A stretch of 40,832 nucleotides of DNA, from the IMG/VR virus record IMGVR_UViG_3300025853_000216, positions 1 through 40,832 of that record. One strand, given 5' to 3'. The stretch's first letter is position 1, and every line of letters begins with the position of its first letter. A program made the position numbers and the translations under genes. Below the pieces are notes generated by a model. The model had not been told where the DNA came from and made no database searches. It saw nothing but the letters and a program-made list of their open reading frames with translations. Shown piece after piece: positions 7,259 through 36,051 of the stretch. Source of the stretch: a virus.

Positions 7259-7786
7259 ATGGGGCAGCAGCTTGTCGCACCATCAAACACAAAGGCAGAG
7301 GTAGAGCTTCGCGAGAAGGTCTCTCTGCTTGAACGCTTGATGCAAGACGGCATCGAGGCAGGCGAACTACAAGACGCGTCTGGCACTCACATGGAATACG
7401 AACACATCTTCACACCAAAGTACGATGAGTTCGGCTGCCACAACTACATTCGTGTCTTGCACATGGACGCTGGCCAAGTGGTCGTTGGGGAAATCCACAA
7501 AATCCCGATGATCCACATCATTATGAAGGGGCGCGTTCGTTGCGCCACAGAGAAAGGCACAAAGGTTTTTTCTGCTCCTTCGATCTTCGTCACCCCTGCT
7601 GGCGGCAAACGCTGCGGCGTGGTTGAGGAAGATTGCATCTGGGTAAATGTCTTACCCACAAAACACGGAAGCGAAGAGGACTTAGACCTCATCAAAGCCG
7701 AAGCTATCGCCAAATCTTTTGATGAGGTTGGCCTAGTCGGTTCCTCTTCCGAATTGAAGAAGCTGGAAGAGGAGAAGGGCAAATGA
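7259..7786 (+). CDS. Cupin-fold protein in the tail gene cluster
   Basis: This 175-residue protein has a central beta segment (about 60-135) with the short-strand and Gly-rich turn rhythm of a small cupin: VLHMDAGQVVVGEIHK, HIIMKGRVRCATEKG, PSIFVTPAGGKRCGVV. Histidines (HMEYEH near 44-49, and HK and MIH around 80-86) could bind metal, but a complete cupin H-x-H...E...H set is not clear. N-terminal and C-terminal ends are charged helices. It begins with an AGGAG site and ends in an ATGA overlap with the next virion gene, so it is co-translated with structural genes. Enzyme, virion part or assembly factor are all possible. Confidence 0.6.
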   Translation: MGQQLVAPSNTKAEVELREKVSLLERLMQDGIEAGELQDASGTHMEYEHIFTPKYDEFGCHNYIRVLHMDAGQVVVGEIHKIPMIHIIMKGRVRCATEKGTKVFSAPSIFVTPAGGKRCGVVEEDCIWVNVLPTKHGSEEDLDLIKAEAIAKSFDEVGLVGSSSELKKLEEEKGK

Positions 7787-10194
7787 GCTTTTTCGTAGCA
7801 GCGATTGTTACTGTCGGCGTTGGCGTTGCAGTCAACGAAAGCGAAAAGAACAGAAAAGAAAAGAAGGCGGCGGAAGAGCGCGAACGTCAGCGCCTCGCAC
7901 GTCTATCCGATGCGGTCGACGCACGCGAAGCTGAGTACCAAACTCAAGCCGACGCCTACAACACAGCCGTCGATAGCTATAATGCAAGTTTTAACAACGC
8001 TATCTCTGGCCTGACTGGTCTGCGCAACAACATCGGCGGTCTTACAATCGCCGATTTGTACGACGACCCAACCACATCAGCAAACGAGAACCAGTACGAC
8101 AACTACCTAACGTCTCTTAACAACATGGAGACGGCTCTAGGAAATCTGAGCTTCAGCGCAGATCGCCCAACATTCAGCAGCGTACTGACGACAGATGACG
8201 GGACAGCCACAGTTGACGACATCCCAACCCTTGGATCGGCGATGACAGGCAACGTCCCTGACTATCTAGACACAATCGACAACCTACGCACATCTTTGAA
8301 AGGTCTAAGCCGTGATCGTCGCAAAGAAGAAAACAGAATTAGCGACTTTCAATCTGACCTAAATTTCGATCTTGGCCAGATCAACCGCGACGTAGGTCGC
8401 CTAGACATCTCCCAAACAGATCGGCTTGGTGGATACGAGGATCAGCTTGCTGACCTAGAACGTGGATATAACGCATTTTCATCAGACATTCTTGGCCAAG
8501 TTGGCGGCCTGTCATATGACGACAGCGGTATTGAAAGTGCAATCCAAGGATTGCGTGATGCACGTTCGGCAGAAGAAACCCGCATAGAAAACTTTGGCAC
8601 AAACCTTGGTAACTTTGCCGATACTTACGCCGACAACCTGTCTGGCTACAACATCACCAACCTTGATGATCTAAACAATCTGCAAGGTTTGATCGACACG
8701 CAGCAAGACGCAGCGAGCGACTTCGACAGTTTGCTAGACTTCGACTTCAGCAACCAGCTAAATAGCCTGGGGCAGACAGAACGCGGCGTCGGAAACTTGC
8801 TTGACGACCGAGAGGCAGAGCTAGACCGCATCTCAGCAGCGGAACTGGAAGCCCAGCGCCGCGCAACTGGCTTGAGCCGTTTTGCAGACAGCCTTGGCAT
8901 TGCTGACATCGACAGCATGAACGACCTTGGCTACGACATTGACGACTACAACACAGACATCGGCAACTTTGAAAGTTTGCTAGACTTCGACTTCTCTGGC
9001 GCAAACGCAACTGCAACAGGCGCAGCAGAAGCTCTGGCTCAACTTCGCACTGACCGCAAGACAGAACTAGATCGCATCGACCAGTTCGGCACTGACCTTG
9101 GTGGCTTCGCATCTCAGTATGCAACAGACCTCGGCGGCTACAACATTGCGAACATCGACGAGATGGACGCACTGCAAGAATTGATCGACCAGCGTCAGAA
9201 CGAGGCTCGCCGCTTTAGTTCAGAGCTAGACTTTGACTTCGGCACTCAGCTAGATGACCTTCGCAACGTCGAAGGCGATCTCGGCGACTTATACCTAGAG
9301 CGTCAGCTTGAGCAGGGTCGCATCGAAGACGCAGAGCGAGACTACTTGCGCACAGCACAATCGCTTGATCGCCTTGCAGACAGCACAGGCATCTACAGCA
9401 AAGCTGGCATCGACGCTCTACAAGAAGACCTCGACAATCTAAACGCCGACATCACTGGCTTCGAAAGTCTTCTGGACTTCGACTTCAGTGGCTCAGACGA
9501 GTTCCGCAACCAAGCTGGCCTAGACATCTCAGACCTGTATTCACAGCGCGGTGAAGCCCTAGACGCAATCAACAACCCAATCGCAGGCATCTCTGAAGGC
9601 GCAGCGGGTCTCGAACTGTACGACGAGACAGGGATGCGCGACGCACGAGGCGAACTGTCAGACCTGAACCGCGACCTGTCTCGCTTCTCAGGTGGTCGAG
9701 TAGAGGAAATCCAAGGCAATGTGAACACAGCCATCGGCGACATCGACACACGCTTGGAAGAACTCAACACTTACCGCAACGAACTGGAAACCAAAGCGCA
9801 AGGTCTACTCGAACAGGTCAACAACGCCACATACTATGGCCTTGGCGATCTGGAGGGCGACCTCGGCAGCCTAGACGCGCAGCAAGCAGAGATCGAACTT
9901 TACAACGCACAGGTTGCGATGGACGAACTCGATCAGTTGCAAGAACGTCTGTACGGCGAGCGCAACCGCCTAGAGCAAGACGCTCAGAACGTGGCAGCCC
10001 GTCAGACGAACGCACAAGACGCACTTCTTAACGCGCTGAACGCATTCGGCTTGCCTCAGTTTGACAACTTGTCGCAGATCGACCCGATGACGATGCAACA
10101 GTTCATGGCGATGATCCAGAACCAAGAAGAAGATGAAGACGAATTTACGACCAACCCGAACGCATTTAGCAGCAATGTAATTCGTGTTGGATAA
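7783..10194 (+). CDS. Internal virion protein with 82-residue tandem repeats
   Basis: This 803-residue acidic protein begins with a hydrophobic segment (about 2-16, FFVAAIVTVGVGVAV) and a highly charged helix, then long helices up to the end. The middle carries four exactly spaced repeats of 82 residues, each marked by LLDFDFS or a variant, arranged ABAB (see the repeat entry). The tail is Gln/Met/Asp-rich. The start overlaps the cupin stop (ATGA). In podoviruses this position belongs to internal virion proteins that are ejected through the tail (T7 gp14-16 or P22 gp7/16/20 roles). The hydrophobic N-terminus fits insertion into a membrane. There is no enzyme motif. Confidence 0.7.
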   Translation: MSFFVAAIVTVGVGVAVNESEKNRKEKKAAEERERQRLARLSDAVDAREAEYQTQADAYNTAVDSYNASFNNAISGLTGLRNNIGGLTIADLYDDPTTSANENQYDNYLTSLNNMETALGNLSFSADRPTFSSVLTTDDGTATVDDIPTLGSAMTGNVPDYLDTIDNLRTSLKGLSRDRRKEENRISDFQSDLNFDLGQINRDVGRLDISQTDRLGGYEDQLADLERGYNAFSSDILGQVGGLSYDDSGIESAIQGLRDARSAEETRIENFGTNLGNFADTYADNLSGYNITNLDDLNNLQGLIDTQQDAASDFDSLLDFDFSNQLNSLGQTERGVGNLLDDREAELDRISAAELEAQRRATGLSRFADSLGIADIDSMNDLGYDIDDYNTDIGNFESLLDFDFSGANATATGAAEALAQLRTDRKTELDRIDQFGTDLGGFASQYATDLGGYNIANIDEMDALQELIDQRQNEARRFSSELDFDFGTQLDDLRNVEGDLGDLYLERQLEQGRIEDAERDYLRTAQSLDRLADSTGIYSKAGIDALQEDLDNLNADITGFESLLDFDFSGSDEFRNQAGLDISDLYSQRGEALDAINNPIAGISEGAAGLELYDETGMRDARGELSDLNRDLSRFSGGRVEEIQGNVNTAIGDIDTRLEELNTYRNELETKAQGLLEQVNNATYYGLGDLEGDLGSLDAQQAEIELYNAQVAMDELDQLQERLYGERNRLEQDAQNVAARQTNAQDALLNALNAFGLPQFDNLSQIDPMTMQQFMAMIQNQEEDEDEFTTNPNAFSSNVIRVG
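8485..9468 (+). repeat. Protein-coding tandem repeat, 4 x 246 nt (ABAB)
   Basis: The codons for the LLDFDF motif start at 8731, 8977, 9223 and 9469, exactly 246 nt (82 codons) apart. Higher-order identity has a 492-nt period. The FGTNLGNFADTYADNLSGYN block (from 8593) recurs as FGTDLGGFASQYATDLGGYN (from 9085). The LADSxGI block (8881) recurs at 9373. The DNA has drifted much more than the protein, so the repeat is old and kept by selection on the protein. Confidence 0.9.
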
Positions 10195-10207: not shown

Positions 10208-12004
10208 ATGTCATTTTCCACAATGCTCCAAATGGGGATGGGAATACTCGGCACGCGCCAAGCGGGCCAAGAGTATCGTGACGGCATACGCGCTCGCTAC
10301 GATGCCTTGGCAATGCAGCGCGATCAGTACAATCAGAACTACGGCAGCTACCTAGACGCCCTTCGAGCGCAGCAGGAAGAGAACGAGTACATCCGTCAGC
10401 GCGAGATGATGGACCGCATGACGCGGGGGTCAGAGCGTGACTTCGCAGAAAGCCAACTATTCTCTTACCTCGACCAACTAGACGCCGAACGCCAGTATGG
10501 CATGGACAGGCAGCAGGTACTCGACCGAGATGCTGCCCGCCAGAGAGCTTTCCAGCTTCAGCAGCTTCTAACAAACCAAGACTTACGCGCCGATGAACGG
10601 CGCTTTGCTTTAGAACAGCTACGCATTGCCCAAGATATTGCGGCGGGTGAGCGCGACTTCACGATGGGCATCTATCAAGACGAAGCAGATCGTCTTGCAG
10701 AACGCCAATCAATGGCTGACCAAGAAGCGCGAGAGATGCAGCTATATCGCTTGCGCGAAGCTGCACGAAACAGAGACCTAGTGGCAAGCGAACGAGAGTT
10801 CGCTAAAATGCTTTTAGGGCAGGCACAAGACGTAGCGGGTGCAGAGCGCGACGAGCAAATGGCTCGCTTCCTTGAAGATCGCGACACCCGTGCAGACGAG
10901 CGTCAGTTCGTGGTCGATCAATACGAAGATTATTTGCGCCAAGCGCAAGCAGAACGTGACGCTGAGATGGGTATCCGCGAGCAAATACTTGCTGGCGCGG
11001 ATGACCTGCAAAGCCGCCTAGAAGCTACAGCATCTCAGCTTGGCTACATCCCAGAAATCGAACAGATCACACCTGAGATGATTGATGCCGAGGTTGCAAG
11101 GCGTACTGGCGAATATATGTCAGACGTTGACCGTGCAGCAGAAGCAGTTGCATCAGTAAACGAAGCAGACTTGATCCGCGCTGGCATCGACGTATCGACT
11201 GGTGCAACCCAACGTCGTGGCGACATTGCTGGGCGTCTGGCACAGGAATATCAGAACGCACGCTCTCGCGCGTATGACGACGCAATGGGCTACATTTCTG
11301 GCAGAAGTAATGCAATGGCCACAAATGTAGGTAATATCATGGATCGCCGTGCAGCTATCCTTGGTGAGACTGCAAACATCGGTGGCGCAGAGCTTGGCAT
11401 CCTTCAGAACCTACGTCAGCTACCAAGCGCAACTGGCGCATATCAGATGGCAGCCAACATTGGCTCTGGCATCCTAGATCGTAACATCGTGAGTGCGAAT
11501 AACTACAGCGCACCAATCGCAGTTACATCTGGCCTATACGACGCATCGAATGCGATGACATCTGGCATGTCGAACTACGATTACAACCTAATGAACCTGA
11601 TGTCTGGCGTATCAAGCAACAATAATTATAGCTCACCAGTAGCGATTGGCTCCGCTATCTACGACGGCAACATTGGCGGCAACTACGCAAGCACGCTATC
11701 TCCGTCGTCAGCAGCATCAACGGCTGGCTTGAACCTTGGATCATCGGTTATGGCTCCATATAACCAGACGCTTCAGAACCCAATGAACTATCTCAGCAAT
11801 GCTAATGCTTACAACAACAGCATAATTAGCGGACTGATGGGTCAGTACAACCAAGGTCGTGAGCGAATGGCAAATGCAAGCTCACACTTCGGTGACTTAC
11901 TAGATGCGAGCGCGGGTGATCTGGACCCGAATAACGAGCTTTATAATAGGTTTAGCACTTGGGCGACTTCGAAGTTCCCTAGTTGGATGGGAGGCGGCGG
12001 ATAA
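10208..12004 (+). CDS. Internal virion protein with 18-residue helical repeats
   Basis: This 598-residue protein has a short hydrophobic start (MSFSTMLQMGMGILG). A long, extremely charged Gln/Arg/Glu/Asp-rich helix spans about residues 20-260. A third, Asn/Ser/Tyr-rich part with weak repeats (NNYSAPIAVTSGLYDASNAM / NNYSSPVAIGSAIYDGN) lies at about 430-500. The helix shows an [A/S/G]-[D/E]-E-R-x-F motif every 18 residues. An AAGGAG site precedes the start by about 10 bases, and the stop overlaps the next gene. The placement between two other internal virion genes suggests a structural ejection protein, perhaps forming a long rod inside the head or a conduit through the envelope. No catalytic motif is visible. 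Confidence 0.68.
   Translation: MSFSTMLQMGMGILGTRQAGQEYRDGIRARYDALAMQRDQYNQNYGSYLDALRAQQEENEYIRQREMMDRMTRGSERDFAESQLFSYLDQLDAERQYGMDRQQVLDRDAARQRAFQLQQLLTNQDLRADERRFALEQLRIAQDIAAGERDFTMGIYQDEADRLAERQSMADQEAREMQLYRLREAARNRDLVASEREFAKMLLGQAQDVAGAERDEQMARFLEDRDTRADERQFVVDQYEDYLRQAQAERDAEMGIREQILAGADDLQSRLEATASQLGYIPEIEQITPEMIDAEVARRTGEYMSDVDRAAEAVASVNEADLIRAGIDVSTGATQRRGDIAGRLAQEYQNARSRAYDDAMGYISGRSNAMATNVGNIMDRRAAILGETANIGGAELGILQNLRQLPSATGAYQMAANIGSGILDRNIVSANNYSAPIAVTSGLYDASNAMTSGMSNYDYNLMNLMSGVSSNNNYSSPVAIGSAIYDGNIGGNYASTLSPSSAASTAGLNLGSSVMAPYNQTLQNPMNYLSNANAYNNSIISGLMGQYNQGRERMANASSHFGDLLDASAGDLDPNNELYNRFSTWATSKFPSWMGGGG
10433..10963 (+). repeat. 18-residue (54-nt) E-R-x-F helical repeat
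   Basis: An E-R (or Q-R) followed by an aromatic or polar residue recurs at residues 76, 94, 112, 130 and 148, then, after one 47-residue interval, at 195, 213, 231 and 249. The regular spacing is 18 residues, five turns of an ideal alpha helix. The same face is therefore presented each time, along a straight helix rather than a heptad coiled coil. Confidence 0.85.
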
Positions 12005-14247
12005 TGTTTTTTGACTACGCATCACGAGGAGCGCAACAAGGTCGAGAAAACCGTAACAGGCAGCGTCGCGAACTAGCTCAAGCGTTCCAGCAATTCCAAG
12101 CCTCGAACCCAGAGGCTACGGTTCAGGACTTTCAGTCTTTCATCGACAGCATGGCGGGCAATGGTCTTGGATCAAACTACATACGAGGCGGCGCACCATC
12201 TCAGGACGTCTTGCAAAGTCTTGCAGAGCAAGGCCAAGCCCGCAAACAGCAGCGTCTTTTGGAGCAAACATCCGCGAACTTCCGTCGTCGCGCCGAAGAC
12301 CTGTCTACTCTCGAAGCCATGGCAGACCGTGCTGTTCTAGGAATGAGCGGCGATGACTTCGACGGAGCATACAATACATTCGTCCAATCACTTGGCCCCA
12401 ACGGTCAACAGATTGTGAACGGCATGAACCTGCGCAATCGCTTCACGATCCAAAACCGCGACACTCTAATGGGCCGTCGCTTGATGGAGAGCATGCCGCA
12501 GATCGACAACTATCTGAATATGTATGGCTACAACACAGAAGCCCTCGACCCAGACCAGATGTCTCGCTTCTTTGGGCTGCCTGCAAATCAGATGCAGCCA
12601 TTTATCGAGGCCGCTAACCGCAAAATTCAGATGAGCATGCAGGAGTGGCGTCAGACCAACAACTCCAACTTAATGCAAATCGCACGCGACGCAGCAACAA
12701 CTCTTGGCCCTGAAGGCGTAGAGCCTGCGCTGCGCAACTACCTGCAAAACTCACCATTCGGTGAGCAGATGCTCGAAGGCTTTGACTTTGCGCCATACGT
12801 TACCGAAGCCGAGCGTCTCGTTTCAGAGCGCGAAGAGCAGAACCAAATCGAAAGCCAAGGTCGTGTAAACCGCATGATCGACGCTTGGGAAAGCAACGCA
12901 CGTCTGCAACGCTTCCTGCGCGATGGCGACAACGACAGCGCGTTACAACAAATGTACGACATCGCTGCCCGCAACCTTTCGGACGAAGACTTCCAGCGCC
13001 TATACGGCAAGACAAAAGAAGAAGTTTCAAGCAACCCAGCACTGGCATTCCAGTCAGACCTCGACCGTTACGTTGGTTCCGAGCGCGACGCACAGGAAGA
13101 AAATTACGCAACTCGCTCACAGGAGTTGGACGCAACACTGGCCGAAGTTTCTCGTACATACGTCACAAACAACCAAGGTCGTCTTACAGAAGTTCTTGGC
13201 AACTACTTCTCAGAGCAGGTTGCTGGCACCTTGGGTATGCAGCTTGGTCAGCGTTATGCTTACTCACCTGAACTGGCGAACGCAGTCTTCGAGATCAACT
13301 CTGGCATGGATGAAGAAACTCGCGAAGCGGCGCAAGACAACCCAGCCGTTGCAGTATCCTACATCTTGGAGCAGCTACAGTCTCGTGGCTTCACGCCAAA
13401 CATTGAACAAACACGCGATCAGTTCATCGAACAGCAGCGTGAGCAGAATGGCCTGTATCAACCACAAACATTCGACGACTGGTTCAACAGTGAGACCGAC
13501 AGCGTGACAACAGCCATGAATGGCTACCGCGAACGCTTCAATCAAATGCTCGAAGCATATGGTAACAACCCAAGCGTCTTGGCTTCAGAGCTTATGAAGC
13601 TCAAGACTGTGGTCGACAGTGTTCCAGCATTGGTTGAGCAGGAGATGGCAGCACGCGCACGCTCAGAGCGCACATGGCTTTATTACAACTCTGGTGGTTG
13701 GGATCAGGCTCGCGTTCAGCAAGGTATCATTGATCCTGCAAACAACGGCGCAGCCGAGCTATCTCGCGTCATCGAGCAAGCGATCACCCAAGCCAACGAG
13801 CGTGCGAATGAAACGCCAGAACCTGTTCCATCTAACCAGACTGTTGATGCACCGTCTGAAGACCAGTCTTCAATCAGCAGATCAGTCAGTGAAAGTGTGG
13901 AAGAAGTATACGGCGTAGGCAATGAAATCCGCAGCAGCGTAAACATGCGTCCTGCGGGTGCAGTTGGTTGGATCACAAGCCCACTTCATGCGGGTCTTCG
14001 CTGGCTTTCGGAAGAAGGCGTGATGAATGAAGCAGATGCGCAAGGTGTGCAAGACCGTCGTGCGTGGGTGGAGCCGCGCTTCGACAGGCTACAAGAATAT
14101 GGCCGCAATCTGAAGAATATGAACCCGCAGCTTTACGCTCAGATGCTGGTCGACTTCCAAAACATGACAGCCGAACAGCTATCGCAGAAATATGATCCAG
14201 TTCTGGATGCACTAGCGAACGATAGACAGATCAGACTTCCTCAGTAA
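12004..14247 (+). CDS. Internal virion protein (helical, 747 aa)
   Basis: I take the ATG at 12004, which overlaps the previous stop (TAATG). A slightly longer frame begins upstream but overlaps the preceding gene without an RBS. The product is 747 residues, almost entirely helical and rich in Gln, Asn, Arg and Glu. It has no membrane span, a low-complexity linker near 620-650 (PEPVPSNQTVDAPSEDQSSI), and a possible amphipathic C-terminal part (RPAGAVGWITSPLHAGLRWL). It is followed by the regulatory hairpin and the giant gene. Size and order match the large ejected proteins of podoviruses. I see no lytic domain, so that activity is probably supplied by the product at 33238-34188 or by the giant protein. 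Confidence 0.68.
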   Translation: MFFDYASRGAQQGRENRNRQRRELAQAFQQFQASNPEATVQDFQSFIDSMAGNGLGSNYIRGGAPSQDVLQSLAEQGQARKQQRLLEQTSANFRRRAEDLSTLEAMADRAVLGMSGDDFDGAYNTFVQSLGPNGQQIVNGMNLRNRFTIQNRDTLMGRRLMESMPQIDNYLNMYGYNTEALDPDQMSRFFGLPANQMQPFIEAANRKIQMSMQEWRQTNNSNLMQIARDAATTLGPEGVEPALRNYLQNSPFGEQMLEGFDFAPYVTEAERLVSEREEQNQIESQGRVNRMIDAWESNARLQRFLRDGDNDSALQQMYDIAARNLSDEDFQRLYGKTKEEVSSNPALAFQSDLDRYVGSERDAQEENYATRSQELDATLAEVSRTYVTNNQGRLTEVLGNYFSEQVAGTLGMQLGQRYAYSPELANAVFEINSGMDEETREAAQDNPAVAVSYILEQLQSRGFTPNIEQTRDQFIEQQREQNGLYQPQTFDDWFNSETDSVTTAMNGYRERFNQMLEAYGNNPSVLASELMKLKTVVDSVPALVEQEMAARARSERTWLYYNSGGWDQARVQQGIIDPANNGAAELSRVIEQAITQANERANETPEPVPSNQTVDAPSEDQSSISRSVSESVEEVYGVGNEIRSSVNMRPAGAVGWITSPLHAGLRWLSEEGVMNEADAQGVQDRRAWVEPRFDRLQEYGRNLKNMNPQLYAQMLVDFQNMTAEQLSQKYDPVLDALANDRQIRLPQ

Positions 14248-14317: not shown

Positions 14318-17300
14318 ATGTCGAAGTATTTGCCTGAAGCCCCCGCGCTTATCGACCCAAACACTGTCACACAGACGCAAAATGTGGACTATTTGTCCAA
14401 TACTGGAGGCGCAGACCTGCTTCGCAGCCCTGCTTTCCTCAACGATCTACGCCAACACTACGAAAGCAAAGGCGTCCGCTTCCTAACGGAAGAGGAATTG
14501 ATAGACCGTTTCTACTCAGACAACACTTGGGACGACCTCAACACAGTCAGCGCGATCAGTTCAGCAGCAGAAGCAGCGACAGCGGGTTCCGACGAGAAGC
14601 AGCGACTTAACCGTCTGCAACAAGCATGGCGTTCACTACCTAACTTCTGGCAAGAAGGTGGCCGTGGCTTCCTATCCGCAGCAGGTGACGCCGCAGGCGC
14701 GATCATCGCAGACCCAATCAACCTTATTCCAGGGGTCAACGCATATGCGAAGGCCACAACCGCAGCCCGTGCAGCAACAGCAGCGGGTCGCAGCGCAACT
14801 CGTGCTGGTGTCACAGCAGGCGCACGCTCTGGTGCGCTGTCTGAAGCAGCAATTTCTGGTGGCCAAGAAGCAATCGTAAACGCGGCAAACCAGACGCGCG
14901 ACATCCAACTTGGGCTTCGCGACAACTTCAGCACAGGCGAATTAGCTGGTGCGACAGCAATCGGTGCTGGTCTTGGCGGTACAGTCGGTGGCGCAATCGG
15001 TGCAGGTGCAGGCGCATTGGCCTCCCGTACTGGCGCACAGCAGGCACAGAACCTTGGACGTCTTGGCTACAGCCCAGAAGAAATTGGCGGCATGTCCAAT
15101 CAGGAAGCGCAGCGTCGCATTCCTGCTGAAATGCCAGACTTCCAGATGCCTGCACCTCGTCAGGCAGACGAAGCAGCGGAAGACACACCCGAACTGACAC
15201 CCGAGCAGCAGCGCGATGCCAAGTGGCAAGAGCAGACTGCCCGTGCAACAGCAATTCGCGATGCACTTCGTGATCGCGTGGATGAACTGCGTGCAGATGG
15301 CGCAGACCCAGACGTTATTGAGGCAATGCAGCAAAGACTAGAAGCTGCAACACGACTAATTCCGATGACCCAGCGCCTTGCAAAAGAGGAAGCTGACATC
15401 ATCAACTTCGGCGGGACAAACGACAGCCAGCAACGAGCGCGTCATTCACGTCGAACAAAAGAATACGAGCGCGACTTTTCCGAATGGCGCGAACTCGTCA
15501 GCACAGTCGAGGACGCCTCAGACGTAGATGCAGTGAATGCACGCATCGACGATATTCAAGCGCGTATCGAAGCTGATAGAGCGCAAGAAGCAGAAGCCGC
15601 AGCGGAAACTCCACCAGAAGCAGCGGCTGACGAGGCGGTTGCGACAGGTGGGGAAGATGCTCCATCCCCTGATGGCCCTGATGCAGCCGCCTCACCTATT
15701 GAGACGTCACCAACAACAGAGCCACTAGACGGTGCAGCACCAGAAGCAGAGGGCTTCCCTGAATTTAAGTATCGCTCAGATGCCCAGCGCGACAGTGTTC
15801 GCAGCCTACTCGAACAGGCCGAACTCAGCGAGTACGACCTGTCTGTTATGGTGTCCAATGGCGAAATCAAAGTCAGCAAGCGTGGGAATGTATTAACCCA
15901 GCAAAGCGTCAAAGACCTACGCGCCAAACTCAAGCCTACCATCGACGAACTGGCTGCAAGAAAAACAGACGACGAGCTACCATCAGCGGCTGGCCCTGAC
16001 CCCGTAGCGGTCGAAACTCCTGCACCAAAGCAGGACGTATCTACCGATCCACTGCGTGGCCAAGCCCTGTTCGCTGGCATTGACCCGAACGGCATCACGC
16101 CACCCAAGCGCAGCAAGACTGGCAAGGTCACAAAAGCGCAGGTCAACAAAGCCATTGCGGCACGCGCACCAGACGCGGAGCCTGACGCATATGCAGCACA
16201 GGTTCGCCAAGAGCTAGACGATGCACTTGATCTTATCGGTGCAGAGGAAGACCTCGACGCATTGCGCCAAGCCGTAGCAATGCTTGCCCGCTCATCGAAA
16301 TCAGAAGACGCAGACATTCTGGCTCTGTTCGATCACCTGACCGACATCATGCCAGACGATGGCCCAGAAGTATCTCTTGGCTCTATCGACTTTACCAAGA
16401 CGGAAATCAAAAAGATTGAGCGTCGTGCGAAAGAACTTCGTCGTCAACAGCCTGGGATGGGTGCCGATCTTGCGACAGAAATTGCGACAGGCGAGATCAG
16501 AGCGCAACGCGGTGCCGATACCCAAGCGATCCGTGGCACAGGCGACAGCATCGAAGACGCAAAGAAGTTCACAACTGCTGGACGCAACGTAGCTGGCCGC
16601 ATCCAAGGCTTCCTACGCCGTGGCACCCCCATTGAGAAAGGCAGCGAATACACAACAACTCGCGACATGCGCGTGAAGCGCAGCGAGTTTGGCTTCGAGG
16701 CCGCTCTTATCGAAGCACGCAGCGGCAAGGGTCCAGACGTCGTGGCGTACACCACACTTGGCCCAGAAACTATTATGACCCGTACTGGCAAGGTGCAGGT
16801 TCCAAAAGGCACCGTCGCATATGCAGACGGTTACACCCGCCGTGCCTATGACAGCATGGAACTGGCACTTGAAGCGCGTGGCGATGGCCGCAAAGACCGC
16901 TCGATGCCTAAAGTTACGGATACAGGTCCAACGCAGAACAACATCAAGAAACTTCTCGACGAGTTCGGCGATGATCCAGAGGCATTCCGCCGTGCATTGC
17001 AGGCGGTTCGCGACGGAGGAACGACAGCCAAGGCACCAGCTATCGAAAAGTTGCCACTGGTTCGTGGCGCAAAGCTGGCAATCGCCAAGCACAAAACTCG
17101 CAAGGGCAAGAACGGCGGTCCACTTATCCGCATGGTCGACCCCAAGCAGGCAGACGCTGGAAAGAATATCTCTGCGGTTCTGGGAAAAGACTTAGACGGA
17201 TGGGAAGTAAAGTATGCAGATCGCAGCCGCTTTACCAACAATCCCAAGAAACTGCGCGACCTATGGGAAGCAACATCTGACGATGCACGCGCGGAAATGG

Positions 17301-20300
17301 AAGGCATCCCACCAGATGCCGCACTAAACGAAGCTGGCTACGAAACAAGTCTTGGCCGCCCGATGAACCAAGTCGAGGCGCATTATATAGAGATCACAGC
17401 CGACACGACGCTGACCGAGAAAGAAACAGCGGCGATCCTATACGCAGCGAAGAAGGCAGACCACGTCAAAAAGATCGACGAGGTCACTGTAGCGGACGTT
17501 CTTTACTATGAGATGGCTCTGAACAGCACACGCTGGCAGAAAAATATCAATGAACACCGTGCAATCGGCGAGGCGATCAAGTCACTCAACGACGTTATGA
17601 GCCGTGTCGCACCTGATGGCATCAAGTTGCCCAACGAAAAGCGCGTCGACGCTATGCGTAAGCTGGATGCAATCTTCGCAGGTGTTGGCTCTGACGAACT
17701 ACAGCATGCGCGAGAGTTCATCACACGCATGGGTGGCGACAGAGCGGTAGCGCCTGAACTTCGTACAACCACACCAAGACCCACGATGACGGGAGTGTAT
17801 GAGTTCGGCATCCCATCTGCATCTAGTGGCGCAACTCGTGTTACCGACTTGGGTGTATCACAGCGTGTTGGCGTCGTCCCGACCCCAGCTAAGATGTATC
17901 CGAACCCACGTCTGATGACGTTCTACCATGAGATGGCACACTGGGCGTACTTCAACATTCTGACCCACAAAGATCGTGCCGACTTCTGGACGTCGATGGA
18001 AAAATACTACACCGACGACGGCAAGTTAGACCTTGATCTGCTCGTTGCGAGCGTTCCAAAGATCGACGAAAAGGGCGTGCCTCTTACCAATTCGCTCGAA
18101 GCACCAGCCGAACTGTTTGCTAACCAGTTCGAAGTCTTCATGGCCAATAAGATTAAAGGCTATGCAACTGCATCCGAGAGCTACTGGCGTCGCGTAACAA
18201 ACTACATCAAAGCAGTGTTCGACCGCTACTTTGGTGGCGTGATGATCGACCCTGACCTAGAGCCGATGTTCGCAAAAATCCTACCAGACGAGGACAGCGG
18301 CGCATTCGCAATGGGCAAAGACGCAGTGGCCAAGACGGAAGCGGGCAAGACCTACAACCGTCGCTACGCACAGATCAAGATGGACCGACAAGACTTGAAG
18401 GATGCCATCTTCGATGACAGTCCTGAAGGCATAGTCAACGCATCGCGCACTATCGTCGAAACGCTGCTTACACTGGCACCTCGCGTACACATTGCGATGA
18501 AGCGTGGCACAACTGGCACTCTGATGCCGCTAATCCCAATGCGCACCATGATCCGTCAACGCATTGACGACATCAGCGAAATCCTATCAGGCAAACCGTT
18601 CGACTTTGACGCATACGATAAGGGCGAAATGCCTCGCTGGATGATCGACGAAGGTTTGACCGCCGTCGATGACCCAACGGAAGCCGCAGACATGCTGCGT
18701 GACTTCTACTTCAATGGCTATAACGGAAAGTTCCAACCTTCCAACGGCATCCCTGCTGGCCCGAAAGGTCAGCCCATCAACAAGCAGTACACGTCTCTCG
18801 AAAAACTGTTCGACATGATGGAGAACCGTTTGGAAGCGGCGTACAAAAAAGCAGAAAGCGGAGACCTACCGCCAGAAGCTACGCCGAAGCTGGATACAGA
18901 CGTTGAGCCGTCTGAAAGGCCGAACCCAATTAAGCGGAAAGCTGCCAAGAAGAAGCAACGCATCGAGAAAGCAGCGGATGCAGCGGCGGCAGCCGTCACC
19001 AAGACGCCCGCAGCCAAGCGCACAAGACGCAATCCAAAGTCTGGCCGCGTCGTTGACCCAGCATTCGCAGAGAGCTTGAAGACAAAAGAGCCAAACGAAC
19101 TGCGCTCACTGTTCATTGAACACAAAGGCACAGAGCGTGGCGATCAGGTCGCATTCGAGCTTATGCACCGCGTCAAATCGCAACCAGCATCTAGCTACAA
19201 AGAGGCTCGCATCACCAAAGAAATCAAGGCGATGAAGTCTGACGAGCTTGAGGCGACATTCCTGAATGGCGTCGAGACTGGCGATGCGAACATGACAAAC
19301 ATGGCGATCACCGAGATGATGCGTCGCCAGATCAACAAACGTCGCAGAAAAGAAGGCTTGCAAATTATCCAGCCTCGCATTCTGAAGCGCGAAATCCTTC
19401 AGACAGAGATCGACGACAACGTCGGTCTGGCATCAAGCGATGGTGTGCCGCCCGCAGCGCGTGCATCTGTACGCGAATTGCTAGGTTACATCACGCACCG
19501 CGACCCAGAAATTCAGTACACAGCCCGCACCATGGCATATCGGATGCTGAACCTGATGGGCAAAACCTCGCGCAAGACGCTCGGTGAAGCCAATGTGATG
19601 ACATCCGCAGACCTTGCACGTCTGGCAAACACTGACCCGAACACAGTGGGCAACGCTGCATTTGCAGACTTCCGCGCACCTGAGTTCCAAAAGCTGCGCA
19701 GTGACCTACGCCGCATGTCGATTGGCCTGAACAAAGGCAAGACAAACCCATTCGACATCATGCACGAGATTGGCCATGTCATGGTTCGCTCTGGTGTACT
19801 GGCAGACGACGAGATCGCAGCGATCCGCGAAGCCTACACACTGGCAAACGACACCACCAAGAAGCGTATTCAGAACGCATATGCTGGCAAGTACGGTGGT
19901 CGCACTGAAAACCTAGACGATCTGCTCGCAGAAGAATGGTTCTCAGAAGGTTTGGCTTACTACATGGCGGAGCGTGTAGCCAAGGGCGACATCCTCGAAG
20001 CAGCACTTGATGGCAACATCGGCAACCTTCGCATGCGCAACTCATTCAGCCGTGCGATGGACAAGATGATTGAGTACATCGCCTACGTCTTAAACGGCAT
20101 GGTTGGCCGCAACGACATCAAGCAGCAGTATCGCCGTTTGTTCTTGTTCGGCGACATGTTCCAGTCAGACGCAACTCCGCCACTGGCCACAACGATCCGT
20201 CGCAAGAAGGGCGTGCATTCTTCATACGCAGCGGATGCTGTGGCTGACCACATTGCGACCAGCCCATCTGCACGTCTGGCGAAGATACGAAACTTCGTCG

Positions 20301-23300
20301 GTGAAGGTATGAGCTACGACGGAGAAAGCGGCAGCTTCTTAGAGTTCTATCACGGAACTCCGAATGGCTGGGCGTTCAAGCGAAACACTAACCCAGACGT
20401 CGTCTTGGCGGGATCATCTCGCGGACAAAAGGGTCCAGGGGTTTATCTAACTCGCTCTGCTGCCGTCGCGTCTGAGGTATACTCTCGCAAGCCGACTTAC
20501 GAGAACTTGCTAGGTCAGATCAACAGACTGGTTGAGGAAGGCAAGATCGACGAAGAGACATCTGTCTACATGGTTGACGCTGCTCGTGACCTCATCAACA
20601 CACGTCTGGCTCTATCGAAAGCACGTCGTAAATACTCTGAGTTCACGCAGTTCAACCAAGAGAAAGCGAAGCGCGACCTTATCAAAGAGCGCATCGACTA
20701 CTTCGTTGACGAGGAACAGGAACTTAACGAGTACCTGATCGAGCGCGGTCTTCTGGTCGAGCCAATGGTTATCCCGACATTCGTGCGTGTGATGAACCCT
20801 GCGGACTTCCGCACCAGAACAATCTACCAGCCGAACCAAGCTGGCATCCCATCGCCAATGGCTAAGATATTCATCGACCATGGCGACATGATGCAAATCT
20901 TCAGACCGACTGCTCTGGACAGCTTTTCTCGTGACGCGTCTTCACGTCGATTAGACGGCGAGGAAATGTATCAGCGTATCGTTCAACTCTACACCGACAG
21001 TGGCTTCAGCAAGGAAGAAGGTCAGCGCATGCTGAACGAAGTCCTTGACGACAATGGCTACGACGGCATTCGCTCTACACACCGCAACAGCCTTGGCATT
21101 CAGGGTACAGAGCAGATGCCGAACGGCGACTTCTACGAAGCGTCGATGACTGAGTATGAAGCTCTGACTGTGTTCGACACATCCAACGTCAAGCATGTGG
21201 ATGCCGACGAGTTTGACGATTTCGACGACCGTCTATTCTACCGTGCCTCTGAGGCTATGCCTCGCGGCACTGCTGGCTCTGTCACTGAAGCGATTATGAA
21301 CCGCGCCATCGACAAGACATCTGACATCAACCCTGCCTCACTGGGCGAGGTGATGGAAGGTGACGGCGTGAGTTCGCCAATGACATCGGCAATCATGTCG
21401 ATGATCCGAGGTCGCAAGCTAGACGTCAAAGAAGAACAAGCGATGCGCAAGACGTCACCGTTCTGGTGGTTACAGTCGCAGTCAACTCGCATGTCTGATC
21501 TTGGCGCAAACTGGGTGGCGAAGTGGTATAAAAACAACTTCCCATCCTTGCATCAGAAGTTTGCATCTAAATACTTCCCGATCCACCACCAGCTTCGTGC
21601 GCTGCCAGACGCTGACGGCAAGGTCCGCGCATGGGCGCGTGCTGCATCTGGCAACGTCGGGCAGCAACAACCGAAGTCATACCAGCGTATCGTGAAGGCG
21701 CTGCGTCGTGGCTACGACAAAGACGGAAACGAAACCCGTTACGTCAAAAACCTCAACGAGCAGGAGCGTAAGGTCTGGAACCAAATCCGTAACGCACTGT
21801 CTGCCGAGCGCGATGAGATGATCGCCAAAGGTATGTACGTCGGAGACCGTGGCCCGAACTACCTGCCACAAGTTTGGAACAAGGAGAAAATTCGTGACAA
21901 CAAGCAAGAGTTTCTTGCCTCAATGGCTGACTACTTCCGCATGGAAAAAACGGCGCATGGTGTTCTCGATTATACTGACGAACAGGCTGCTGATTTTGCG
22001 AATGGATTGTTTGAGACTTTGGCTGAAGATGGGGCAGATGGCGTCTTCATTCCGATCCAAGGTGGCTCGCGCAATCCGAAGTTTGACAACGTAGACTTCA
22101 GCCGTGTCATCGAACTAGAGAAGTATCCTGCCGCAATGGACAGCCTAGAGAAGTTCCTTGAGGACGATCTCGAAGCATTGCTGGTTAAATACTTCGAAGG
22201 TTCATCGCGTCGCATCAACCATGCGGAGCAAATGGGCATCAATAGCCACGCGTTCTACGACTACATTCTGGCCGCAGATGCAGGTCGAGAAGGGATCATC
22301 CGCCTGCTGACAACAGCGAAGGACTTCCGCAAGGACATCCGAGCAATCAGCGAGACAGGATACCCAGAATACGCGCAGCTATCAGACGTCGTTCGTATGC
22401 CATTCGAAGGCAAAGACGCAGACGCTGGACGCTTCGTCGACGACTTGATGCGCACCCATGCCGAGCAAGGTGAAGGTGCGGCACGCAAGATGCTCGAAAC
22501 AGTTGCGCCTCGTGACCCAGACGGCAACATCGCTCTGGCTTACAAGCGCCGCTCAGACGCAATCATCGGCGCACTGACTGACTTCAAAGGTCAGAAGGTA
22601 AACTGGAAGCCAAGCGACTTTGAGTTCATGGAGAACTCGATGCGCGTCGCAATGAAGAAGCCTCAGACAGGCACTGGCTCTCGCGGCATGATGAACTTCA
22701 GCCGCGCAATGCGCAGCTTCAACAGCGTCACTCTACTTGGCTTCACAACTCTGACGTCTTTGGGTGACTTGGTGCTACCAATCATCCGCTCTGGCTCATT
22801 CTCTGACTGGGCGAAGGGCGTACACAAGTGGAAGTCTGACCCAGAATACGCGCAGTTCATTCACGATACTGGCGTCGCAATGGAGAACATCGTCCACGAG
22901 CGCATGGTTCACATGTATGGTGCGGTCGATGGAAAGCTGACCAACGCATTCTTCAACGCAACAATGCTAACGCCTTGGACTGACATGAACCGTCAGATCG
23001 CAGGTGCTACTGGCTACGAAGCGATGAAGACCATGCAGCGTAAGGCTCGCAAGCATTACAAAGACGGGCTTCCAATCGGCGAGCAGCCTGTTCAGTACAA
23101 GACAGCAGCACGCTTCTTGAATGGCTATGGACTGGGCGATTACTTGCCGAGCGGTGTGAAGAAAGACATCAGTCTTGGCGACCGCAAGTTGATGGCTGGC
23201 GATCCTGCACTTGGTCAGGCGATGATTAAGTTCGCAGACGAAGCGATCTTCCAGCCGAACCCGAACGACATCCCACTCTGGGCGCAAACGCCTTGGGGTT

Positions 23301-23941
23301 CGATGCTGTTCCAACTGAAGTCATTCCCACTAATGATGACGCGTCTTGGCGGACACGTCGTGGATGAAGCCATGAAGGGCAACGTAAAGCCTCTGGCATA
23401 CTTCGCAACACTTGGCCCTGCATTCGGTATGGGTGCGCTGGCTGCGAAAGACATCATCCAGATGCGTGGTGGCGACGACGAGCGTAGTCCAGAGCTACGG
23501 CGCCGCAACATCCTGAAGGTTCTTGGCTACGACGAGAAGGTCCACGGCAACGAGCAAGACTTCCTTGGCTGGTATGTCGAAGGGATGATGATGATGGGTG
23601 GCCTCGGTCTTATCGGGGACGTCATGCACAGCGCAGTCACTCAGGTGGACAACGGTGCATACGGTAAAATCCGCATCGCCTCCACAGTAGCGGGTCCATC
23701 ATTCGGTGCGTTTATGTCAGCGGTCGATGTGGCTGCTGGCGGCAAAGACGCAGTGATTGGTGGCGACAACAGCAACGCAAAAGAACGGTCAGCCGTCCGA
23801 GAGATGGCCACACGCATTCCTGTCGTTGGCGGCATCAGAGCCGCACGCGAAGGAATTGTCGATACTCTGGCAGGTGAGCCAGACAGCGGCAGACGCAAGC
23901 GCAACCCATGGCAATCAAGCTGGAGTAGCGGTTGGGAATAA
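14318..23941 (+). CDS. Giant polyvalent virion protein (3207 aa): two zincins + ART-like
   Basis: The ATG at 14318 has a GGAGA site (in a hairpin), so I prefer it to an upstream TTG. Residues 1-120 are helical. About 120-250 is a Gly/Ala-rich, weakly hydrophobic stretch (DPINLIPGVN, AGLGGTVGGAIGAGAGALAS) that could penetrate membranes. About 270-700 is charged and low complexity. A zincin module follows with HEMAH at 1204-1208 and Glu1265, then a second with HEIGH at 1816-1820 and Glu1877. An ADP-ribosyltransferase-like domain lies at about 2005-2300 (YHGTP at 2011-2015, GPGVYLT, EYE at 2279-2281). The C-terminal ~850 residues are helical with a GPNYLPQVWN motif. Such fused domains are known from 'polyvalent' phage proteins, injected with the DNA to act on host targets. 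Targets here are unknown. Confidence 0.85.
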   Translation: MSKYLPEAPALIDPNTVTQTQNVDYLSNTGGADLLRSPAFLNDLRQHYESKGVRFLTEEELIDRFYSDNTWDDLNTVSAISSAAEAATAGSDEKQRLNRLQQAWRSLPNFWQEGGRGFLSAAGDAAGAIIADPINLIPGVNAYAKATTAARAATAAGRSATRAGVTAGARSGALSEAAISGGQEAIVNAANQTRDIQLGLRDNFSTGELAGATAIGAGLGGTVGGAIGAGAGALASRTGAQQAQNLGRLGYSPEEIGGMSNQEAQRRIPAEMPDFQMPAPRQADEAAEDTPELTPEQQRDAKWQEQTARATAIRDALRDRVDELRADGADPDVIEAMQQRLEAATRLIPMTQRLAKEEADIINFGGTNDSQQRARHSRRTKEYERDFSEWRELVSTVEDASDVDAVNARIDDIQARIEADRAQEAEAAAETPPEAAADEAVATGGEDAPSPDGPDAAASPIETSPTTEPLDGAAPEAEGFPEFKYRSDAQRDSVRSLLEQAELSEYDLSVMVSNGEIKVSKRGNVLTQQSVKDLRAKLKPTIDELAARKTDDELPSAAGPDPVAVETPAPKQDVSTDPLRGQALFAGIDPNGITPPKRSKTGKVTKAQVNKAIAARAPDAEPDAYAAQVRQELDDALDLIGAEEDLDALRQAVAMLARSSKSEDADILALFDHLTDIMPDDGPEVSLGSIDFTKTEIKKIERRAKELRRQQPGMGADLATEIATGEIRAQRGADTQAIRGTGDSIEDAKKFTTAGRNVAGRIQGFLRRGTPIEKGSEYTTTRDMRVKRSEFGFEAALIEARSGKGPDVVAYTTLGPETIMTRTGKVQVPKGTVAYADGYTRRAYDSMELALEARGDGRKDRSMPKVTDTGPTQNNIKKLLDEFGDDPEAFRRALQAVRDGGTTAKAPAIEKLPLVRGAKLAIAKHKTRKGKNGGPLIRMVDPKQADAGKNISAVLGKDLDGWEVKYADRSRFTNNPKKLRDLWEATSDDARAEMEGIPPDAALNEAGYETSLGRPMNQVEAHYIEITADTTLTEKETAAILYAAKKADHVKKIDEVTVADVLYYEMALNSTRWQKNINEHRAIGEAIKSLNDVMSRVAPDGIKLPNEKRVDAMRKLDAIFAGVGSDELQHAREFITRMGGDRAVAPELRTTTPRPTMTGVYEFGIPSASSGATRVTDLGVSQRVGVVPTPAKMYPNPRLMTFYHEMAHWAYFNILTHKDRADFWTSMEKYYTDDGKLDLDLLVASVPKIDEKGVPLTNSLEAPAELFANQFEVFMANKIKGYATASESYWRRVTNYIKAVFDRYFGGVMIDPDLEPMFAKILPDEDSGAFAMGKDAVAKTEAGKTYNRRYAQIKMDRQDLKDAIFDDSPEGIVNASRTIVETLLTLAPRVHIAMKRGTTGTLMPLIPMRTMIRQRIDDISEILSGKPFDFDAYDKGEMPRWMIDEGLTAVDDPTEAADMLRDFYFNGYNGKFQPSNGIPAGPKGQPINKQYTSLEKLFDMMENRLEAAYKKAESGDLPPEATPKLDTDVEPSERPNPIKRKAAKKKQRIEKAADAAAAAVTKTPAAKRTRRNPKSGRVVDPAFAESLKTKEPNELRSLFIEHKGTERGDQVAFELMHRVKSQPASSYKEARITKEIKAMKSDELEATFLNGVETGDANMTNMAITEMMRRQINKRRRKEGLQIIQPRILKREILQTEIDDNVGLASSDGVPPAARASVRELLGYITHRDPEIQYTARTMAYRMLNLMGKTSRKTLGEANVMTSADLARLANTDPNTVGNAAFADFRAPEFQKLRSDLRRMSIGLNKGKTNPFDIMHEIGHVMVRSGVLADDEIAAIREAYTLANDTTKKRIQNAYAGKYGGRTENLDDLLAEEWFSEGLAYYMAERVAKGDILEAALDGNIGNLRMRNSFSRAMDKMIEYIAYVLNGMVGRNDIKQQYRRLFLFGDMFQSDATPPLATTIRRKKGVHSSYAADAVADHIATSPSARLAKIRNFVGEGMSYDGESGSFLEFYHGTPNGWAFKRNTNPDVVLAGSSRGQKGPGVYLTRSAAVASEVYSRKPTYENLLGQINRLVEEGKIDEETSVYMVDAARDLINTRLALSKARRKYSEFTQFNQEKAKRDLIKERIDYFVDEEQELNEYLIERGLLVEPMVIPTFVRVMNPADFRTRTIYQPNQAGIPSPMAKIFIDHGDMMQIFRPTALDSFSRDASSRRLDGEEMYQRIVQLYTDSGFSKEEGQRMLNEVLDDNGYDGIRSTHRNSLGIQGTEQMPNGDFYEASMTEYEALTVFDTSNVKHVDADEFDDFDDRLFYRASEAMPRGTAGSVTEAIMNRAIDKTSDINPASLGEVMEGDGVSSPMTSAIMSMIRGRKLDVKEEQAMRKTSPFWWLQSQSTRMSDLGANWVAKWYKNNFPSLHQKFASKYFPIHHQLRALPDADGKVRAWARAASGNVGQQQPKSYQRIVKALRRGYDKDGNETRYVKNLNEQERKVWNQIRNALSAERDEMIAKGMYVGDRGPNYLPQVWNKEKIRDNKQEFLASMADYFRMEKTAHGVLDYTDEQAADFANGLFETLAEDGADGVFIPIQGGSRNPKFDNVDFSRVIELEKYPAAMDSLEKFLEDDLEALLVKYFEGSSRRINHAEQMGINSHAFYDYILAADAGREGIIRLLTTAKDFRKDIRAISETGYPEYAQLSDVVRMPFEGKDADAGRFVDDLMRTHAEQGEGAARKMLETVAPRDPDGNIALAYKRRSDAIIGALTDFKGQKVNWKPSDFEFMENSMRVAMKKPQTGTGSRGMMNFSRAMRSFNSVTLLGFTTLTSLGDLVLPIIRSGSFSDWAKGVHKWKSDPEYAQFIHDTGVAMENIVHERMVHMYGAVDGKLTNAFFNATMLTPWTDMNRQIAGATGYEAMKTMQRKARKHYKDGLPIGEQPVQYKTAARFLNGYGLGDYLPSGVKKDISLGDRKLMAGDPALGQAMIKFADEAIFQPNPNDIPLWAQTPWGSMLFQLKSFPLMMTRLGGHVVDEAMKGNVKPLAYFATLGPAFGMGALAAKDIIQMRGGDDERSPELRRRNILKVLGYDEKVHGNEQDFLGWYVEGMMMMGGLGLIGDVMHSAVTQVDNGAYGKIRIASTVAGPSFGAFMSAVDVAAGGKDAVIGGDNSNAKERSAVREMATRIPVVGGIRAAREGIVDTLAGEPDSGRRKRNPWQSSWSSGWE

Positions 23942-23959: not shown

Positions 23960-24352
23960 ATGCTACAAGCACTCATCGGTCCTGTAACTGGCTTGTTGGA
24001 CAAGTTCATTGAGGACAAAGACCAAAGGGCGCAACTCGCCCACGAAATAGCAACCATGGCGGAGCGTCACGCGCACGAAGCCGCCATGGCTCAGATCGAC
24101 GTAAACAAACAAGAAGCTCAACACCGATCCGTCTGGGTCGCTGGTTGGCGACCTGCATGCGGATGGCTTTGCGCTGCCGCAATGGGCGCACACTTCGTGA
24201 TCTTCCCGACAATCGCCGTCGTAGCGACGGCGTTCGGACAGACGGTCGACTTCCCAGAGTTTGACATGAACAGCTTGATGACCGTCTTGCTTGGCATGCT
24301 GGGTCTTGGCGGTCTTCGCAGCTTCGAGAAAAGCAAGGGGGTTGCGAAGTAA
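23960..24352 (+). CDS. Holin, 3-TM gene-transfer-agent type
   Basis: This 130-residue protein has an amphipathic, charged N-terminal half (DKFIEDKDQRAQLAHEIATMAERHAHEAAMAQIDVNKQEA). A GWRPACGWLCAAAMGAHFVIFP segment gives one or two membrane spans, and the final span is around MTVLLGMLGLGGL, followed by a short charged tail. The RPxxGW motif and this layout fit the GTA_holin_3TM family (PF11351), which is frequent in alphaproteobacterial phages and gene-transfer agents. It permeabilises the inner membrane so that the endolysin at 24839-25267 can escape. It starts after an AAGGAG site and ends in an ATG overlap with the next gene. Confidence 0.85.
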   Translation: MLQALIGPVTGLLDKFIEDKDQRAQLAHEIATMAERHAHEAAMAQIDVNKQEAQHRSVWVAGWRPACGWLCAAAMGAHFVIFPTIAVVATAFGQTVDFPEFDMNSLMTVLLGMLGLGGLRSFEKSKGVAK

Positions 24353-24852
24353 TGCCTGACTTTGGCGACATCAAGAACATAATTGCTGCGGTGGGTGCGC
24401 TCATCGCTGCAATATCTGGTGGAGCTACATTGTCTGGCAAGTTCGGGTGGGATTGGTTCGACCGTCCTGTACTCGAATGGCACCCAGAGCAGTTCAACGT
24501 CTTCGATGGCTGGATCGACGAAGGTTTCAAGGTCGTCGTCGCACGGCAAAAGCTACGCGACGATTGTGAAGTCACTGGCTTCCGCGTGGAACTTCGCGAC
24601 AGCGAGTATATCGTACACCCACTGACCCCATCAGTAGCGAAGTTTAGTGGGCCAGCAAGCGAGAACGTCGACCTATTTGGATACCGCGTCTACCTCCCTG
24701 AGATGCACGCAGAAAAGGTGGCGATTGGAGAGGCAACTCTTCTTGGCCAGATTAAGTACGCATGCCCAGAAGGCGAGCAAATCGTGACCTATCCATCTCA
24801 CCCAAATCTCACATTCAATATACTAGGAGTAAGCAGCGATGAGACACATTGA
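24352..24852 (+). CDS. Membrane-anchored lysis-cassette protein of unknown function
   Basis: This 166-residue protein has an N-terminal hydrophobic segment (about 8-27, IKNIIAAVGALIAAISGGAT) and a soluble, beta-rich remainder (VLEWHPEQFNVFDGW..., CEVTGFRVELRDSEY, NLTFNILGVSSDETH). The ATG overlaps the holin stop, and the C-terminus overlaps the amidase start by 14 bases. It is therefore firmly inside the lysis cassette. A spanin-like or holin-accessory role is possible by position. I see no lipobox or coiled coil typical of spanins, so no function is assigned. Confidence 0.7.
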   Translation: MPDFGDIKNIIAAVGALIAAISGGATLSGKFGWDWFDRPVLEWHPEQFNVFDGWIDEGFKVVVARQKLRDDCEVTGFRVELRDSEYIVHPLTPSVAKFSGPASENVDLFGYRVYLPEMHAEKVAIGEATLLGQIKYACPEGEQIVTYPSHPNLTFNILGVSSDETH

Positions 24853-25267
24853 TGAGATCGTAATTCACTGCACAGCCACAAACCCAAGCTGGTATGCAGA
24901 CAAGAGTGCGCAAGATGTTGCGCAAGAAATCCGCAGATGGCACACGCAAGAACGTAAATGGAGCGACATTGGCTACCATTTTATCGTACATCGTAATGGG
25001 GAGGTCGCAACTGGTCGCCCTGTCTCGCGTTCAGGTGCGCACGTCGCAGGACATAACAAAAATACGATTGGCGTTAGCTTGGTCGGTGGTCGTGGCGGCT
25101 GCTCAGACGACAGCTTCCTCGACAACTTCACGGAAGAGCAGGAGAAAGCACTGCGTGAACTGATCGAAGACCTAAAGAAAGACCACAAGACCATCACAAA
25201 GGTGACAGGCCACAACGACTATGCGTCAAAGGCTTGCCCCTGTTTTGATGTCGATGAGTGGTACTAG
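24839..25267 (+). CDS. T7-lysozyme-type N-acetylmuramoyl-L-alanine amidase (endolysin)
   Basis: This 142-residue single-domain amidase (Amidase_2/PGRP fold) cuts the amide bond between N-acetylmuramic acid and L-alanine in peptidoglycan. The zinc and catalytic residues line up with T7 lysozyme: His10 (VIHCTAT), Tyr46 (IGYHFIVHRNG), His125 (TGHND), Lys131 and Cys133 (SKACPC). The expected T7 set is His17, Tyr46, His122, Lys128 and Cys130. There is no signal peptide, so it depends on the holin. It starts 14 bases before the previous stop and an AGGAG site is present. Its stop overlaps by four bases the stop of the oppositely oriented gene, so the two operons converge here. T7 lysozyme also inhibits T7 RNA polymerase; no such polymerase is in the window. 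Confidence 0.95.
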   Translation: MRHIDEIVIHCTATNPSWYADKSAQDVAQEIRRWHTQERKWSDIGYHFIVHRNGEVATGRPVSRSGAHVAGHNKNTIGVSLVGGRGGCSDDSFLDNFTEEQEKALRELIEDLKKDHKTITKVTGHNDYASKACPCFDVDEWY

Positions 25268-33113: not shown

Positions 33114-33241
33114 TGTCCCTCGTGCGCAACATAAACAAGCGCAAGAGGGCAGGGACCAGTAGGCCGAAGTCGCGATCAACCGTGTCCGCAAAAGCATACG
33201 CGGACATGAAGAACAACTGGGGCAAGAAGAAAAAGAAATGA
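33113..33241 (+). CDS. Small basic protein, SLVRNINKRKRAG family (42 aa)
   Basis: This 42-residue protein begins MSLVRNINKRKRAGTSRPKS and ends in a WGKKKKK tail. Proteins of nearly this form recur, to my memory, among marine podoviruses, always unnamed. It starts in a TAATG overlap and ends in an ATGA overlap with the transglycosylase-like gene, so it is coupled to the gene for the infection machinery. The high positive charge suggests binding to DNA, RNA or a membrane surface. Confidence 0.7.
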   Translation: MSLVRNINKRKRAGTSRPKSRSTVSAKAYADMKNNWGKKKKK

Positions 33242-35976: not shown

Positions 35977-36051
35977 GCTGTGTTAGCTCAGTGGTAGAGC
36001 GCGTCCTTGGTAAGGACGAGGCCGCGAGTTCAATCCTCGCACACAGCACCA
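35977..36051 (+). tRNA. tRNA-Thr (GGT anticodon)
   Basis: All arms are present. The acceptor GCTGTGT pairs with ACACAGC. The D arm is GCTC-AGTGGTA-GAGC. The anticodon stem CGTCC/GGACG has loop TTGGTAA (anticodon GGT). The T arm is GCGAG-TTCAATC-CTCGC, and a CCA end is encoded (36049-36051). It reads ACC threonine codons. It lies between small phage genes and the integrase, so it may serve both as a working tRNA and as the integration target copy. It is complete, not a 3' fragment as usual in attP. Confidence 0.93.

Follow-up and report, generated by a model that had tools for sequence, protein, structure and literature searches.

We studied a virus contig from IMG/VR, 40,832 bases long; below, "the window" means this whole stretch. 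A single open frame on its forward strand encodes a protein of 3207 amino acids (aa), P0001. The frame runs from an ATG at 14318 to a stop codon that ends at 23941, with an alternative TTG start at 14288. The gene, its conserved ends, and its neighbors are as follows.

10208..12004, + strand: 598-aa protein upstream of P0001, candidate internal virion protein (position only)
11983..14247, + strand: 754-aa protein upstream of P0001, candidate internal virion protein (position only)
14318..23941, + strand: giant polyvalent protein P0001, 3207 aa (single open frame; collinear full-length relatives)
14339..15403, + strand: N-terminal region of P0001, residues 8-362 (residues 8-137 resemble pelagiphage "internal virion protein D")
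21455..23938, + strand: conserved C-terminal region of P0001, residues 2380-3207 (399-407 relatives among IMG/VR candidates)
23960..24352, + strand: holin, immediately downstream of P0001 (PF11351, E 1.8e-19)
24839..25267, + strand: N-acetylmuramoyl-L-alanine amidase, the endolysin (PF01510, E 4.9e-17)

The gene order (capsid, tail, large internal proteins, P0001, holin, amidase) is the same in Roseobacter phage CRP-810, the nearest cultured relative. The 598-aa and 754-aa proteins matched no family in Pfam- and PHROG-type profile scans. The N-terminal ∼130 residues of P0001 are 33% identical to a protein of HTVC121P (E 1e-4, the best tblastn match), and other pelagiphages match at up to E 1e-2. 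The C-terminal region is the most strongly conserved part of the P0001 family and has a weak match to PHROG 6958, "virion structural protein" (E 0.0013). No RNA polymerase domain was matched in whole-protein Pfam and PHROG scans, and no N-terminal lytic transglycosylase of the T7 gp16 type was matched in the Pfam scan.

Because the neighborhood resembles that of the T7-type internal virion proteins, we read P0001 as probably an ejected polyvalent protein. Gene order and the weak N-terminal match indicate that it is probably an internal virion protein that is ejected and delivered with the DNA. Several unrelated enzymatic domains, two zincin-like modules plus an ADP-ribosyltransferase (ART) domain, lie in this one very long protein, as is characteristic of polyvalent proteins, and P0001 is probably an ejection-type member of that class from a CRP-810-like marine podovirus. 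The original prediction that one giant phage protein combines gluzincin-like modules with an ART domain is supported by the profiles and the model described below; its terms "virion" and "injected" rest on gene order and the weak N-terminal match.

Three other features of the window were recorded. Positions 7259-7786 encode a tail-fibre-type protein by PHROG (E 2.5e-22), the CRP-810 counterpart of which, in the same position, is annotated as a GNAT acetyltransferase. A 316-aa frame at 33238-34188 has a weak PHROG "peptidase" match (E 3e-6), and a tRNA-Thr gene with anticodon GGT lies at 35977-36051.

Zincin-like modules and the ART domain

The enzymatic domains of P0001 and their key residues are as follows.

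17483..18352, + strand: zincin module 1, residues 1056-1345 (invariant HExxH and E1265; zincin-like core in the AlphaFold model)
17927..17941, + strand: HEMAH, residues 1204-1208, module 1 (motif scan; conserved in relatives)
18110..18112, + strand: E1265, probable third metal ligand in module 1 (95/95 intact modules have Glu; the 10 dead ones have K/Q/R)
19385..20272, + strand: zincin-like module 2, residues 1690-1985 (hhalign to module 1; confident HExxH and Glu helices)
19763..19777, + strand: HEIGH, residues 1816-1820, module 2 (motif scan; conserved in relatives)
19934..19936, + strand: E1873, probable third metal ligand in module 2 (paired with E1265 by profile alignment; Glu in 74/74 intact modules)
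19946..19948, + strand: E1877, probably a second-shell residue, aligned with N1269 (63 intact modules have Glu, 11 have Asp)
20273..21337, + strand: ADP-ribosyltransferase domain, residues 1986-2340, with H2012, Y2043, and D2249 (PF18760)

Both HExxH motifs, at residues 1204 and 1816, were where the original prediction placed them, in the frame that it gave. The composition of P0001 leads one to expect 0.03 such motifs; among 2000 shuffled sequences, 62 had one and none had two.

By profile comparison, modules 1 and 2 of P0001 are homologous, as had been proposed. Deep profiles of 45 module 1 sequences and 28 intact module 2 sequences, with no cross-contamination between the sets, aligned over 105 columns with an hhalign score of 59.6 (P 7e-8, probability 94.6), and the alignment runs beyond the motifs into the next helices. 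Reversed-profile controls scored 14-15 (P 0.3-0.4). Smaller profiles, of 11 and 12 module sequences, gave P 1e-3. Since single-sequence HMM scores between the modules were weak (best real score, 12.0 bits, versus up to 7.4 bits for shuffles in which the motif was kept), the profile-profile result is the main evidence for homology. Homology of this kind points to an origin of the two modules by duplication, after which they would have diverged to the extent seen in the profile alignments, where they are now far apart.

The original prediction also held that each HExxH is followed by a Glu ligand at an identical interval of 61 residues. A Glu does stand at +61 in both modules, but the module 2 equivalent of E1265 is E1873, at +57; the ligand first named, E1877, was misassigned by one helical turn. 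The distance from the first His to the ligand varies among relatives from 52 to 84 residues in module 1 and from 48 to 63 in module 2. Because E1265 and E1877 are not equivalent and the spacing varies, the matching intervals are a coincidence. Conservation and the predicted helices suggest that two of the metal ligands, both His, and the catalytic Glu come from the HExxH of each module, and that the Glu on the next conserved helix (E1265 or E1873) would complete the metal site.

Separate profile searches with the modules, which had been proposed as a check, found that the modules match each other but gave no match between the 11 and 12 module sequences and any curated Pfam zincin profile, including those of polyvalent-protein families, at E values up to 5. 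PDB sequence searches with both modules also gave no match. An AlphaFold model of residues 1056-1990, built from a 43-sequence alignment, had a mean pLDDT of 75.8; an earlier run with 11 sequences had a mean pLDDT of 55. In the better model, three strands were assigned in module 1, at about 1147-1150, 1159-1162, and 1181-1186, together with an HExxH helix (1198-1213) and a Glu helix (1263-1278) that has E1265 at its start; confidence is low around 1153-1179, within the strand region. Module 1 is thus predicted to fold as a zincin core with a small beta sheet before the HExxH helix. Module 2 has its HExxH helix at 1811-1824 and its Glu helix at 1866-1883, in a block with pLDDT of about 92-95, and no strands were assigned ahead of the HExxH helix. 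Structure prediction, another of the checks proposed, supports a zincin core for module 1 and both helices for module 2; the HExxH residues lie on helices in both. A PDB fold search with the 43-sequence model returned no significant match, and the 11-sequence model was too poor for a meaningful search. Three relatives in the viral structure library BFVD, with an E value of 5e-24 at best, carry the name "Large polyvalent protein associated domain-containing protein".

The ART-like domain that had been suggested is present: the segment alone scores 33.4 bits against PF18760 (ART-PolyVal; cut-off, 31.2), and the whole protein scores 24 bits. The same profile matches 19/35 relatives of P0001. The H-Y-D triad is well kept, with H2012 in 33/35, Y2043 in 32/35, and D or E at 2249 in 33/35; D2249 as the third residue is our own assignment. 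The profile match shows the domain after module 2 to be a HYD-type ART.

Fate of the modules across relatives

Relatives were drawn from viral contigs, genome contigs, and annotated phages; outside viral contigs there were only five loci, some of them in MAGs. The module-fate set consists of the 104 members with both regions in view or with enough upstream sequence, and a module is counted as intact if its HExxH residues are present. Both modules were intact in 50 members, only module 1 in 43 (module 2 dead in 34, undetected in 9), and only module 2 in 11 (module 1 dead in 10, undetected in 1); in no member were both lost. With near-duplicates removed (n = 73), the numbers were 36, 29, 8, and 0. 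Some of the 104 members had been found via the module motifs, but searches anchored in the C-terminal region, which are independent of the motifs, alone give the same pattern.

In the ten decayed copies of module 1, HExxH has mostly become HAxxQ and residue 1265 is K, Q, or R, with the module 2 residues kept; the reverse is seen in the other group. Fold-forming residues persist in the dead modules, for example W1209 in 10/10 for module 1 and R1824 in 36/42 for module 2.

Two candidate statements about these losses were discarded. That module 1 is never lost was an artifact of searches with the module 1 motif; the C-terminal-anchored searches revealed dead copies. An apparent double loss (L182) came from a truncated contig with no scorable module 1.

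On a tree of the C-terminal region, parsimony calls for no fewer than 2 changes in module 1 and no fewer than 8 in module 2. When independent, irreversible losses were simulated on this tree, the absence of double losses had a P of 0.41, or of 0.15 at near-observed tip counts, so mutual exclusion is not significant. The tree-based null is not rejected because module 1 was lost only twice. The reciprocal decay without double loss is therefore suggestive but not significant; every one of the 104 members has kept one complete HExxH set.

Several individual relatives deserve mention. One lies in a Roseobacter-group genome scaffold (Poseidonocella sp. HB161398, 10001-11146), so that some members of the P0001 family may be prophages. 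A similar protein on another contig (L064) has a decayed module 2 and a changed ART His. In a further relative (L062, 6682-16538) two breaks, near residues 645 and 1656, divide the protein among three frames, either by a real split or by sequence error. A 3865-aa freshwater podovirus protein (MW202828.1, 10147-21741) contains a clear module 1 relative (60 bits), and its second HExxH, at 2506, resembles neither module; this second zincin-like motif may have arisen separately.

Possible roles of the two modules

The original prediction offered host takeover and self-processing as roles for a double protease. Because either module may lose its catalytic residues in relatives whose other module has its full set, self-processing agrees somewhat better with the family data than does a pair of separate proteases for host takeover. 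We favor redundant copies of one putative protease acting on the ejection apparatus itself. Most likely the two sites share a task around assembly or delivery: they would cut the long ejection chain of the phage or its partner internal proteins, and such cuts might free the ART and other domains. One working copy would suffice, since relatives show decay of one module or the other but never of both, and the dead copy may be retained as a structural part. Zincin self-processing of polyvalent proteins has been proposed before (Iyer et al. 2017, PMC5512222). Several points count against our explanation. Simple redundancy by itself would not lead one to expect that some half of the family has both sites intact; the absence of double losses is not significant under independent loss on the tree; module 2 lacks strands in the model and the PDB yielded no fold match; and the N4 virion RNA polymerase, a zincin-bearing giant that is ejected, is packaged without being cut (PMC5512222). 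We judge the whole reading, duplicated gluzincin-type modules that share one job on the phage's own proteins with one copy enough, to have about an even chance of being correct. A bolder version, about which we are doubtful, is that either copy of the duplicated putative protease, though never both, may decay into a pseudo-enzyme, and that the two form one obligatory processing unit, an active/inactive pair in which the active partner has been swapped between sister phage lineages.

That the two zincins are instead separate effectors, each with its own host protein to cut once injected, as the original prediction suggested, seems to us unlikely. Both sites are intact in half of the relatives, the modules have diverged far from each other, and host targeting is allowed for such domains by Iyer et al. 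(PMC5512222), but whole clades lose all catalytic residues of one module or the other and the protein persists. Two indispensable host targets would be incompatible with such losses, although host-specific loss of a target could allow them. A little less probable again is that the zincin folds serve mainly as structure within the ejection chain, with catalysis incidental or ancestral. The persistence of W1209 and R1824 in dead modules agrees with a structural role, as does N4, in which packaging requires the zincin-containing region and the protein stays uncut (PMC5512222); against it, 104/104 relatives have at least one complete set of HExxH plus Glu, and intact modules invariably have the catalytic Glu. 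Very improbable is the view that the motifs are chance or non-zincin features and that at most one of the modules is a metal site, since, despite the absence of Pfam and PDB sequence matches and of strands in the module 2 model, the motifs and their coupled Glu are conserved in 95 and 74 sequences, the helices are confidently predicted, and the modules are homologous.

Comparison with known systems

A double zincin in one phage protein is already known as a class, and to call it striking was an overstatement. Among the enzymatic domains of polyvalent proteins, zincins occur most often, with 1-5 per protein, and about 8% of the zincin-bearing proteins have more than one copy; ART domains also occur in the class (PMC5512222). 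P0001 resembles these proteins in its great length, its multidomain makeup, its HExxH helix followed by a Glu helix, and its HYD-type ART, and several known members likewise have more than one zincin; it differs in that its modules match no Pfam zincin model. The useful results are the duplicate relationship, the corrected module 2 ligand, and the decay of one module or the other, of which the last is new here; family-wide decay of one of two zincin duplicates was not found in the cited portions of Iyer et al.

At about 3500 aa, the ejected virion RNA polymerase of coliphage N4 (gp50) is also a giant protein; its one HExxH module is the zincin-like C1 domain (PMC12633501). Unlike P0001, it has an RNA polymerase domain and a single zincin. 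Module 1 has a weak profile similarity to the N4 zincin (hhalign P 0.001), and modules 1 and 2 are much closer to each other (P 7e-8); with the similarity only weak, we set aside a common origin with the N4 zincin. The sections used of the preprint on the N4 structure describe the HExxH domain without assigning an activity to it (PMC12633501). P0001 is like T7 gp16 and the pelagiphage internal virion protein D in gene position and in its N-terminal match to the pelagiphage versions, and unlike them in having no detected transglycosylase and in its added zincins and ART.

In CRP-810 (OR671924, PMC11288001), the orthologue of P0001 (gp36/gp35/gp34) is 43-67% identical, depending on the part, and has both HExxH motifs intact. 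It was deposited as three overlapping frames that bear no annotation beyond "internal virion protein D" and hypothetical, and the text of the CRP-810 paper does not mention protease, polyvalent, or ADP-ribosyl. The frame breaks (10062-10090 and 16066-16112) fall near module borders, at about residues 363 and 2360 of P0001; the second coincides with a ∼31-base tandem duplication. The split may be a real fission or a sequence error. Whether the zincins of polyvalent proteins cut phage chains or host proteins is a question on which the P0001 family bears. Close relatives near the cultured CRP-810 provide natural knockouts of each copy with the other intact, which makes the question testable.
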